Positions 10,185 through 13,784 of a DNA stretch of 34,353 nucleotides are shown here, piece by piece. The stretch's first letter is position 1; each line of letters opens with the position of its first letter. Both the position numbers and the translations under genes were made by a program. Below the pieces are notes generated by a model that did not search any database, was not told where the DNA came from, and worked only from the letters and a program-made list of their open reading frames with translations. The stretch is from a bacterium (GTDB lineage: Bacteria; Patescibacteriota; Patescibacteriia; Patescibacteriales; VMTK01): contig JAUYAT010000042.1 in NCBI GenBank assembly GCA_030693295.1, positions 1-34,353 of the forward strand, read 5' to 3'.

Positions 10185-11273
10185 TTAATACATCCCGGTG
10201 CTGCCGAAACATCCTTCGCCCCTTTCAGTCGCGTCAATAATTTCTTCTTCAATAATATCCGGCAATTCAACTCTTTGAATTAATAATTGCGCCACCTTCT
10301 GTTGCGGCGCTATATTGTAAATATCCTGGCTTAAATTTATTAAATTCACCGTAACTTCGCCCCTGAAGCCGGCGTCAACAACGCCTGCCATCGTATGAAT
10401 GCCGTCTCTGGCGATTCCGCCCTTATCCCAAATCAAGCCGGCGAAACCGTCCGGTATCGCCATTTTAATTCCGGTTTTAATAATCGCCCGTTCGCCCGGC
10501 ATCAGAGAATAATAATCGGCCGAATATAAATCAAGCCCGGCATCGCTTTGGCGCGCCCTTGTCGGCAATTTGGCGACAGGGGAGAGGCGCGTAACTTTAA
10601 TTGGGTAATTTTGATTTTGAGAAATTATATTTTGTTCGTGCAACCATTTAAAATCAGGCGCCAATTTTTCAGCTTGTTGAAGCGGCTCTATAATTTTAAC
10701 CACCTCTTGCCATAGCCGGTTATGGATTTGTTCTATGGATTGGTTGGCGTTAATTTTTATCCAGCCGTATTCTTCGGCTAAATTAAGATGGGCGCGCCTT
10801 ACTTTGTTAATTAAATCTTCATCGGTTTCATGCCTGTGTTCGTTTTCCGCCGCGTTTTTAAACCGTTCGCCGTCAAATAAGAAAGCGATATTTTCTTTCA
10901 AGAGATGGGAATTAATATATTTTAAAAATTGTTCATCAACGCCGGCGCCGATGCCCCATGCCAGCCCCGTGCCCGTATAGTCTTCGGCGATAATGTTCGT
11001 TCCTGCTTCCAGTTTTTCAATTAATTTTTTTTCAAACTGCGTTCTGTTCAAGCAATAAATAATTTGCGCTTCGCGAGGAGTTAAATTATAAAAATTGCCT
11101 TGCCTTAAATAATTATTCAATATTGTTCCGGACGGCTCAAGATTATAAATCGGGTATTTTAAATATTCCGTTCTTTGTCCGTGTAAATTTAATCTATCCG
11201 CCAGCATTTCCGCCTGCGTAGTTTTGCCCAAATTGTTTATGCCGTACAGCACGATGAATTTTCCATTACTCAT
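10185..11273 (-). CDS. Thymidylate kinase-dUTPase fusion
   Basis: N-terminus P-loop YGINNLGKTTQAEMLADRL (Tmk-like); C-terminus carries dUTPase motifs DAGLDLYS, AGVVDAGFRGEV, APQQKVAQLLI, RGEGCFGSTG. Confidence 0.88.
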   Translation of the reverse strand: MSNGKFIVLYGINNLGKTTQAEMLADRLNLHGQRTEYLKYPIYNLEPSGTILNNYLRQGNFYNLTPREAQIIYCLNRTQFEKKLIEKLEAGTNIIAEDYTGTGLAWGIGAGVDEQFLKYINSHLLKENIAFLFDGERFKNAAENEHRHETDEDLINKVRRAHLNLAEEYGWIKINANQSIEQIHNRLWQEVVKIIEPLQQAEKLAPDFKWLHEQNIISQNQNYPIKVTRLSPVAKLPTRARQSDAGLDLYSADYYSLMPGERAIIKTGIKMAIPDGFAGLIWDKGGIARDGIHTMAGVVDAGFRGEVTVNLINLSQDIYNIAPQQKVAQLLIQRVELPDIIEEEIIDATERGEGCFGSTGMY

Positions 11274-11336: not shown

Positions 11337-11909
11337 TTAGAATCTGGATTCCCGCTTTCGCGGGAATGACAACTCCTCAATTTGCTTATATAACTCTTCC
11401 AAATTTCCATTGTTATTTAATTCAATCTCGGCGTTTTCCATTACAACAGGTATCTCGGCGTCCGCCTCTTTTTTTTCATCAGCCAGAAACTCCTCGTAAG
11501 TTTTTTGCGTGTCGCCGCGGTTTTCGGTCCGCTGGATTAATCTTTGGTACCTGATTTTCGAGTCAGCGATTATTTTAACCAATTTAAAATTCGGCAATTT
11601 TGTTAAATATTTTATGTCAGCCAGGCGCCTGATGCCGTCAACCACGATTAAACTGTTATTTTCTTTTTTAACATCTTCGGCGATAACTTTTGCCAATATA
11701 TCCTCGCCAAAACCCCGCCTTAAAATGGTAGACAGGTTTTGCATGTTTTCCCTGGTTATTTCTTTGTGCAATCTGTTAAGAATGTCGCGCAGAATAGTGG
11801 AAAAGCGGTAGGTTACGGCGTTGTTTTTTTCTTCCAAGTATTTGGCAACAGTGCCTTTGCCCGAAGAGATTTTTCCGGCTAAGCCGATAATTTTTTTGTT
11901 ATTTGGCAT
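11337..11909 (-). CDS. P-loop nucleoside-monophosphate kinase-like protein
   Basis: GLAGKISSGKGTVAKYLEEK P-loop, VVDGIRR; lies inside the dTMP gene cluster; last residues SFPRKRESRF are repeat-derived. Confidence 0.7.
   Translation of the reverse strand: MPNNKKIIGLAGKISSGKGTVAKYLEEKNNAVTYRFSTILRDILNRLHKEITRENMQNLSTILRRGFGEDILAKVIAEDVKKENNSLIVVDGIRRLADIKYLTKLPNFKLVKIIADSKIRYQRLIQRTENRGDTQKTYEEFLADEKKEADAEIPVVMENAEIELNNNGNLEELYKQIEELSFPRKRESRF
11344..11371 (-). repeat. Inverted partner of copy B, overlapping the 3' end of CDS 11337..11909
   Basis: CTGGATTCCCGCTTTCGCGGGAATGACA. Confidence 0.9.
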
Positions 11910-11913
11910 AATT

Positions 11914-13206
11914 TTATTTGTTGGTTATGTCTTGTATTCCTCTTCTAATATCCCAATCATCTTTTTCCAAATCAGAATGGAGCGTCAGATTAGGAAATTT
12001 TTCCATTAAGCTATTGTGCATTTTATGGGCTATTTTCCTTAAGGTGGGGTGGACGGTTTTGCCGGAGCGAAGCTCAATTACGTATACCGCCGCCGGCAAG
12101 CCGTAGGTGACTTTGCACGGCATATTAAACCCTAAAGCGATATAGTACTGCTTAATTTCGTTTGATGTTTCCAGCGCGTTGATTTTATTTGTCTGTTCTT
12201 CAATCAGTTTCTCCGCTTCCATTTTTATATCTCCGGGCAGCTGGTTCAAGTACCATTGGTTAAAGCCCGGCTTTGTCGTGAGAAGCGGCATGCGGCACAC
12301 GCCGTTTCTGTGCCTTTGTATATCGCGGAATGAGCCGAAATCCAATAAAAATTCAAAAGTTATCAAGCCCAGTTCGGTTAAAAAGTGCGGCAGATTCGTT
12401 TTTGTCGGGCGCTTTCGCAGCAAATCCGCGTATTTGTTCAGCTCTTCGGAATCAACGCGCGCGGAACAGGCGAAATCCATAGCGGGGCTGTCCGGAAAAT
12501 AGTAATTATAATTTTTCGCCGCGAAATCGCGGTATTGCTCCTGATTTTCGTAAAGCTTGTGGCAAAAGCTGTGCGGATACTTTTCTTTTAGTTTTGATAA
12601 AATATTTTCCGCTATTTCCCTTGTTTCTTTTAGGGGATGGTATCTCAGCAACGCCAATTTATCCCAAGCTTGCCGCAGATTCGTGTGCCAGCTTAGCTGG
12701 GTGGTGATTCCGGCGGGCAGGAACCCGCGCATTATATCAAAAGCGCGCGCTTTCACGGCCTTCAGATAAACCGTTTCATCTTCATCGGTTTTTTTCGGGT
12801 ATAGGTTTTTAATGTGGTTTTCAACGGTTTCCTGGCTTTCAATATAAAATTTCATCCATTGATTTAATACTTCCCTTGAATTTTCGGAGCCAAGGGGGTC
12901 AATTATCGGCTGTTTGGACATATCCACATATCTCGTGCTTGTTTCCTGGCCGCTGTATAAAGGCCAGTCCTGAATGGCTTTATCGGCCAGGGTGCTGATT
13001 TTTTCAATAAAGATTGTCGTGCTTCCGCAGTCGGCAATGCTTAAGTGGCCGTAGCCGACATAAAATTGCTCCATAAATTTGCCGGATCCGGTCGCTTTGA
13101 CTTTTTCAACATGCTCCGCAACGCTTTTGGGGCTTCTTGAATAAAGCGCTTGCATCATCGCCGAATCTTCAGGATTAAATTCATCATAAATAAAAACATC
13201 AGCCAT
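11914..13206 (-). CDS. ThyX-like FAD-dependent thymidylate synthase, tandem-domain form
   Basis: N-half GHLSIADCGSTTIFIEKIS...SGQETSTRYV and AFDIMRGFLPAGITTQLSWHTNLRQAWDKLALLRYHPLKETREIA; C-half ITFEFLLDFGSFRDIQRHRNG. Confidence 0.75.
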   Translation of the reverse strand: MADVFIYDEFNPEDSAMMQALYSRSPKSVAEHVEKVKATGSGKFMEQFYVGYGHLSIADCGSTTIFIEKISTLADKAIQDWPLYSGQETSTRYVDMSKQPIIDPLGSENSREVLNQWMKFYIESQETVENHIKNLYPKKTDEDETVYLKAVKARAFDIMRGFLPAGITTQLSWHTNLRQAWDKLALLRYHPLKETREIAENILSKLKEKYPHSFCHKLYENQEQYRDFAAKNYNYYFPDSPAMDFACSARVDSEELNKYADLLRKRPTKTNLPHFLTELGLITFEFLLDFGSFRDIQRHRNGVCRMPLLTTKPGFNQWYLNQLPGDIKMEAEKLIEEQTNKINALETSNEIKQYYIALGFNMPCKVTYGLPAAVYVIELRSGKTVHPTLRKIAHKMHNSLMEKFPNLTLHSDLEKDDWDIRRGIQDITNK

Positions 13207-13223: not shown

Positions 13224-13784
13224 TTAAAAAATAATTATATCGTTTTGCTTGTCCTGAATATCGGCTTGCGTTTCATTCGGATTTTGGTTGGCGTAAGGCA
13301 ATACTTCATGATTTAATATTTTCAGCTGAACTCCGGCTTCGGCGAAAATTTCCTTGCTTCTTGAGCCGGCATGGTAATCATTGGCGCAAACCACTCTTTT
13401 TATTCCCGCGTTTATTATCATTTTGGCGCAGGTATAACAAGGCGTCATTTTAACGTAAATTGTCGCGCCGTCTAAAGTAATCCCGAATTTGGCGGCTTGG
13501 CAAATCGCGTTCTGCTCGGCGTGGGTTGTCCTGATGCAGTGGCTGGACTGATGGCCGTCCGGATGGATTACTATGTGCATTTCATGGCCGATTTCATCGC
13601 AGTGCGCCAAGCCGATTGGCGAACCCGCGTAGCCGGTTGAAATTATTCTTTTGTCTTTTGTTATGACGCATCCCGCCCGGCCTCGGTCGCAGGTTCCGCG
13701 AGCGCCCACCATTTCAACGATTTTCATAAAGTATTCGTCCCAGGAAGGGCGAATATATTTTTGTTGTTCCTGTTGTTCTTGCAT
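13224..13784 (-). CDS. dCMP deaminase (ComEB family)
   Basis: GCVITKDKRIISTGYAGSP, THAEQNAICQAAKFG (HAE), MTPCYTCAKMIINAGIKRVV (PCxxC). Confidence 0.9.
   Translation of the reverse strand: MQEQQEQQKYIRPSWDEYFMKIVEMVGARGTCDRGRAGCVITKDKRIISTGYAGSPIGLAHCDEIGHEMHIVIHPDGHQSSHCIRTTHAEQNAICQAAKFGITLDGATIYVKMTPCYTCAKMIINAGIKRVVCANDYHAGSRSKEIFAEAGVQLKILNHEVLPYANQNPNETQADIQDKQNDIIIF

Follow-up and report, generated by a model that had tools for sequence, protein, structure and literature searches.

The flavin adenine dinucleotide (FAD)-dependent thymidylate synthase ThyX is an essential enzyme and an antibacterial target. Its active site is formed by three subunits, and in the homotetramer every residue serves in all roles at once. 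The subject of this analysis is a 430-residue protein with two ThyX-derived halves (tandem ThyX), encoded at 11,914–13,206 of a 34,353-nucleotide stretch of Patescibacteriota DNA (contig JAUYAT010000042.1, assembly GCA_030693295.1). This whole stretch is called the window, and all window features described below lie on its reverse strand. In its predicted fold, its FAD- and deoxyuridine monophosphate (dUMP)-binding residues and its gene context, the window protein agrees with known ThyX (PF02511; TM0449 of T. maritima, ThyX of M. tuberculosis), in which sites composed across subunits are already the rule. The four sites of the classical homotetramer are identical, whereas the window protein has two diverged fused halves between which the site residues are divided, with two sites per dimer predicted.

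The FAD bound to subunit A of M. tuberculosis ThyX contacts the RHR motif of A and S71 and R190 of subunit B, and dUMP contacts R95 and R199 of A and S105 and R107 of subunit C (PMC6514825). PolB, a uridine monophosphate (UMP) C5-methylase with the ThyX fold, binds its substrate through Arg82/His83 (phosphate), Arg86 (ribose) and Arg193 (pyrimidine) of a first monomer and Glu94', Ser96', Arg98' and Arg166' of the adjacent monomer (PMC5003785). In the PolB structure, the dUMP contacts are divided between two monomers in the same way; unlike the window protein, PolB is a single-domain homotetramer and acts on UMP. Valas & Bourne 2009 (PMC3224940) remark on a ThyX with an uncharacterised domain duplication in Chloroflexi and a few other species. 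Likened by its description, this protein very probably belongs to the same broad group as the tandem ThyX; the remark mentions no motif loss, split site, Patescibacteria or phage members, or kinase fusions. The best phage family match of the window protein and its phage relatives was PHROG 36506 (phage 'thymidylate synthase'), which offers a family label only; its profile length of 491 suggests tandem members, and the split is unannotated. A search of the open-access literature, with most subscription papers outside its reach, turned up no account of the complementary active-site split, the spread in Patescibacteria and phages, or the kinase fusions. The class is present in databases and has seemingly never been characterised.

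Two ThyX-derived halves in one chain

The open reading frame (ORF) starts with ATG and contains no internal stops; a frameshift or pseudogene was ruled out, the frame being intact and conserved across phyla. The nearest named relatives are from Candidatus Falkowbacteria (67–69% identity), and the source assembly is 1.06 Mb (~90% complete). The full protein matched Pfam Thy1 (PF02511) with 75.4 bits (E 6.4e-21; cut-off 24.8), and no ThyA (PF00303) homology was among the families matched. Almost all of the Thy1 score came from the N-half (residues 1–225; 12,532–13,206), within which the Pfam stretch covered residues 18–212 and which aligned to single-domain ThyX in hhalign with probability 97.4. 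Against the NCBIfam equivalog model TIGR02170, a model of single-domain ThyX, the protein scored 35 bits, below the cut-off of 87.9.

The ThyX ancestry of the C-half (residues 236–430; 11,917–12,501) was accepted because of profile-profile comparison, high-scoring intermediates and its own structure model. When a profile of 16 C-halves was compared by hhalign with a profile of 26 single-domain ThyX, the probability was 90.8 (E 1.2e-6), with RHR falling on RHR and the arginine of ELR on R174 (T. maritima numbering); the column-shuffled control gave 0.1 and the reversed one 0.7. Longer relatives supplied C-halves that served as intermediates, with hhalign values of 98.9 to single ThyX and 99.7 to the short class to which the window protein belongs. 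In one intermediate tandem protein (genome G062), the halves scored 105.6 and 94.0 bits against Thy1, both far over the cut-off. Modelled alone with AlphaFold2, the C-half reached a predicted local distance difference test (pLDDT) of 87.5 and a predicted TM-score (pTM) of 0.84, and all 50 of its listed PDB matches were ThyX (best E 8.3e-7). Searched directly against the PDB, the C-half profile gave no match; its placement in a solved structure is thus beyond sequence search alone. For the full chain (pLDDT 83.8, pTM 0.82), the 50 best Foldseek matches in the PDB were likewise all ThyX. Secondary structure elements of the N-half (strand 62–71, helix 72–79, strand 167–176, helix 177–187) had counterparts in the C-half (strand 280–289, helix 290–297, strand 360–369, helix 370–380).

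The initial annotation, which had taken both halves to be ThyX-derived, is borne out by hhalign, the intermediates and the matches of the structure models, and both halves are predicted to adopt the ThyX fold. The presence of only a single ThyX domain was ruled out by the profile and fold evidence for the C-half.

Complementary loss of active-site residues

Residues were numbered on T. maritima ThyX (Tm), the sequence of which was verified against the PDB. They were tabulated for 77 tandem proteins (16 of the short class and 61 others, 400–796 aa) and 26 single ThyX including that of T. maritima. The N-half has lost RHR, D80-W81-P82 (12,961–12,969) standing at this position, and among short-class N-halves position 78 is D in 16/16 and no H occurs at H79. 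It keeps the substrate recognition motif SGQETSTRY (residues 85–93; 12,928–12,954), in which E88, S90, R92 and Y93 correspond to Tm E86, S88, R90 and Y91, each present in 16/16. Also kept are R160 (12,727–12,729; Tm R147, a dUMP contact from the neighbouring subunit) and R178 (12,673–12,675; Tm R165, an FAD contact in the subunit-B role), both R in 16/16. In H54-L-S56 (13,039–13,047; Tm H53/T55), the serine at position 55, an FAD contact in the subunit-B role, is S in 16/16 N-halves and replaced by L in 15/16 C-halves.

The C-half shows the converse. It keeps R298-H299-R300 (12,307–12,315) as RHR (R78 16/16, H79 15/16, R80 16/16) and R380 (12,067–12,069) as Tm R174, which activates the uracil (16/16); the N-half has L187 at this position (L in 15/16 N-halves, L or M in all). 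RDIQRHR (residues 294–300) is followed by NGVCRMPLLTT in place of SxxExSxRY, and no R is listed at R90 among short-class C-halves. R147 is replaced by Q353 (12,148–12,150; Q in 16/16 and invariant in 17 homologues), and at R165 no R is listed, with P in 10/16. A shifted R174 at R188 of the N-half was ruled out, relatives having H, K, M, R or other residues at this variable position.

Among the 61 other tandem proteins, S88 and R90 were found in 61/61 N-halves and R147 in 56/61; their 60 readable C-halves had R78 and R174 in 60/60 and H79 in 53/60. As read from these alignments, the placing of SxRY in the N-half and of the first RHR arginine and R174 in the C-half is not chance, because S88 and R90 occur in 16/16 and 61/61 N-halves and the first R of RHR and R174 in all 76 readable C-halves. 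An alignment-free search for contiguous RHR-x5-9-SxR[YF] found 22 of the 26 single ThyX vs none of 88 tandem proteins. In the window protein no domain holds RHR followed by SxRY within ~10 residues, the motifs lying in separate halves, while S55, RHR, S88, R90, R147, R165 and R174 are all present somewhere in the chain and invariant in 17 homologues, phage copies included. A 617-aa copy from Acidimicrobiaceae keeps the same residues. On its sequence, the tandem protein is ThyX by ancestry; it falls outside the single-domain RHR-SxRY definition and below the TIGR02170 cut-off, with every catalytic residue kept along the chain.

The initial annotation had proposed catalytic motifs split between the halves, SxRY being retained without an upstream RHR in the N-half and RHR without a following SxRY-type motif in the C-half. 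Both observations are confirmed, and its interpretation as complementary degeneration is supported, with R147, S55 and R165 (N-half) and R174 (C-half) following the same division.

A FastTree LG tree of 162 sequences placed all 68 N-halves and all 68 C-halves in separate clades with support 0.998, a grouping that the alignment itself may favour. Since the halves separate in this way, one old duplication probably lies behind the tandem ThyX. The tree covers the tandem proteins apart from the class of L062, L064 and L131, five degenerate proteins and one truncated protein. In that class the N-half has a GHHTPFQH of classical appearance, and RHR lies in the C-half. The N-halves of this class group with single ThyX at a support of only 0.69, and it may represent a second, independent duplication with the same split. 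It is likely that the tandem proteins form a large ancient ThyX class in which duplication was fixed by complementary active-site loss, so that an obligate dimer with two sites took the place of a homotetramer with four, and in which the split may have arisen twice.

Predicted assembly and function

From the contacts in the solved structures, we infer the Tm equivalents of the three roles to be R78-H79-R80 and R174 for role A, T55 and R165 for role B, and E86, S88, R90 and R147 for role C. In the window protein all role A residues are in the C-half and all role B and C residues in the N-half. M. tuberculosis R87, also listed as a role C contact, is absent from the N-half and from T. maritima too. 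Judged by aligned residues, the N/C division matches which subunit supplies each residue per site in solved ThyX structures. A ThyX site draws on three subunit roles, so each site would need one C-half together with the N-halves of both chains of a dimer. This refines the initial annotation: two tandem chains are predicted to form a dimer in which each of two active sites extends across both. Under 222 symmetry, if a C-half stands at A and N-halves at its partner positions B and C, D is a C-half with the same kind of site; of the four sites of a chain pair, two would then be complete and two incomplete.

The tandem chain, derived from an ancient in-frame duplication of ThyX, would be the FAD-dependent thymidylate synthase of the cell (dUMP + methylenetetrahydrofolate (CH2-THF) + NAD(P)H → dTMP). 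Paired, two chains would imitate the classical homotetramer as a pseudo-tetramer (N2C2). Each C-half would act as subunit A, its RHR gripping FAD and dUMP and its R174 activating the uracil; one N-half would give S55 and R165 to FAD, and the other would contact dUMP through R147 and the SxRY loop of substrate recognition. Each dimer would have two complete sites, both chains contributing to each, and their two mirror-image counterparts would be dead. We infer the N2C2 arrangement from site geometry, and catalysis and the dead sites are predicted along with it. To the reading as a whole, a thymidylate synthase acting as an N2C2 dimer with two composite sites, a probability of roughly 0.87 was assigned.

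A thymidylate synthase function is well supported by gene context because of the adjoining dCMP deaminase and dTMP kinase (TMK)-dUTPase genes, TMK fusions in relatives, the lack of ThyA and DHFR, and the non-overlap with ThyA. The source genome has one Thy1 gene and serine hydroxymethyltransferase (SHMT), and no ThyA (PF00303) or DHFR was found in it, absences that alone are weak in a genome ~90% complete. Organisms with ThyX commonly have SHMT without DHFR and ThyA. In the phylum, the tandem protein was matched in 84 of 380 genomes; a strong ThyA match (E < 1e-40) occurred in 0/84 of these vs 173/296 others (Fisher p 4e-27, a value that ignores shared ancestry), and weak ThyA matches in 4/84. 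In Electrothrix only this Thy1 gene and no ThyA were found, and two Falkowbacteria genomes have the tandem ThyX with no ThyA found.

Besides genome incompleteness and shared ancestry, several points weigh against the composite-site dimer. Alone against Pfam Thy1, the C-half scored 14.9 bits (E 0.023), under the cut-off, its sequence likeness being distant. The clean split at R165 holds for the short class only, most longer-class proteins having R165 in both halves, and the H53 position is D in many longer N-halves. The full-chain model is of low confidence at residues 49–58, which hold H54 and S56. TM-scores of the Foldseek matches were moderate (about 0.55–0.65 for the full chain and the C-half, the latter about 0.6) with high root-mean-square deviations. 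The structure predictions cover single chains, and the interface between two chains is a proposed one.

The protein could instead be a non-catalytic regulatory or scaffolding remnant, thymidine being obtained by salvage, as residues that single ThyX cannot do without are missing from each half, a weak thymidine kinase match was found (20.2–20.6 bits) and one subgroup has lost RHR and R147. Yet each catalytic residue is strictly kept in one or other half, phages included, and a partition that matches site geometry is not expected of a dead protein, which makes this explanation highly improbable. That neither half is complete alone would also fit an active enzyme formed by one half with a separate ThyX subunit from another gene, the tandem protein being only one component. 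Given one Thy1 locus in the source genome, one each in 3/4 named genomes, and halves that complement each other fully, such an arrangement seems exceedingly improbable.

If the N2C2 dimer is correct, the tandem form separates in nature the subunit roles of ThyX, and mutation in one half would alter only one role in a site. The role of each subunit residue, the need for all sites, and site number vs flavin turnover would become directly testable.

Gene neighbourhood and carriers

The gene order in the window is dCMP deaminase (13,224–13,784; PF00383 7.5e-25, ComEB 6.3e-39), which supplies dUMP, tandem ThyX, a small P-loop nucleotide kinase-like protein of the same gene run (11,337–11,909; profile matches), and TMK fused to dUTPase (10,185–11,273; PF02223 9.2e-18, PF00692 5.7e-27), which uses dTMP and supplies dUMP. 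The tandem ThyX lies between rplA and gatB, as in many of 67 tandem loci, and TMK, dUTPase or dCMP deaminase was fused or within 3 kb in 37/67.

Single chains of TMK and tandem ThyX occur in several relatives, four of them confirmed by Pfam (L102 5837–8047, reverse strand; L103 4609–6984, L104 742–3114 and L119 3771–6158, forward strand). Three more are apparent (L107 253–2628, reverse; L113 4131–6404 and L114 4262–6598, forward). The apparent TMK-tandem ThyX chains, of 737–796 aa, would place two consecutive steps of dTTP synthesis in one protein.

The same composite site might serve a nucleotide C5-methylase for another substrate, such as UMP or a modified pyrimidine. UMP is preferred by the ThyX relative PolB (PMC5003785), the TIGR02170 cut-off was missed (35 vs 87.9 bits) and large phages carry the gene. 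The gene nevertheless sits among genes that make dUMP and use dTMP, forms fusions with dTMP kinase in relatives, takes the place of ThyA across the phylum, and is the sole recognisable thymidylate synthase in the source genome and Electrothrix; a different substrate is therefore considered improbable.

TMK-dUTPase is also one ORF in two Falkowbacteria loci (L002, L003) and in L071. A single ORF in L085 (8724–9923, reverse strand) matches dCMP deaminase and dUTPase and suggests another dUMP-supply fusion. The window genes at 11,337–11,909 and 13,224–13,784 match the N-terminal and C-terminal parts, respectively, of the anti-phage dCTP deaminase model NF041025, well under its cut-off.

The tandem class appears to serve DNA precursor synthesis in many Patescibacteria, in Electrothrix and in some large phages. 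Large-phage contigs with a short-class copy include viral contigs L149–L163 and the Vibrio phages BONAISHI (L165) and Yong MS32 (L166), the Yong MS32 protein being annotated as hypothetical. The phage copies keep the same active-site residues. An exclusively phage origin was ruled out as a general account, the Electrothrix copy lying among cellular genes and Patescibacteria copies often in the rplA-to-gatB neighbourhood. In one subgroup (L120, L121, L123, L125, L127) the C-half RHR is altered (RQG, RMG, RHV) and N-half R147 is G; these proteins are possibly inactive or changed in function. Of the genomes of this subgroup, G050 has a second short Thy1-like match and G095 a weak ThyA match.
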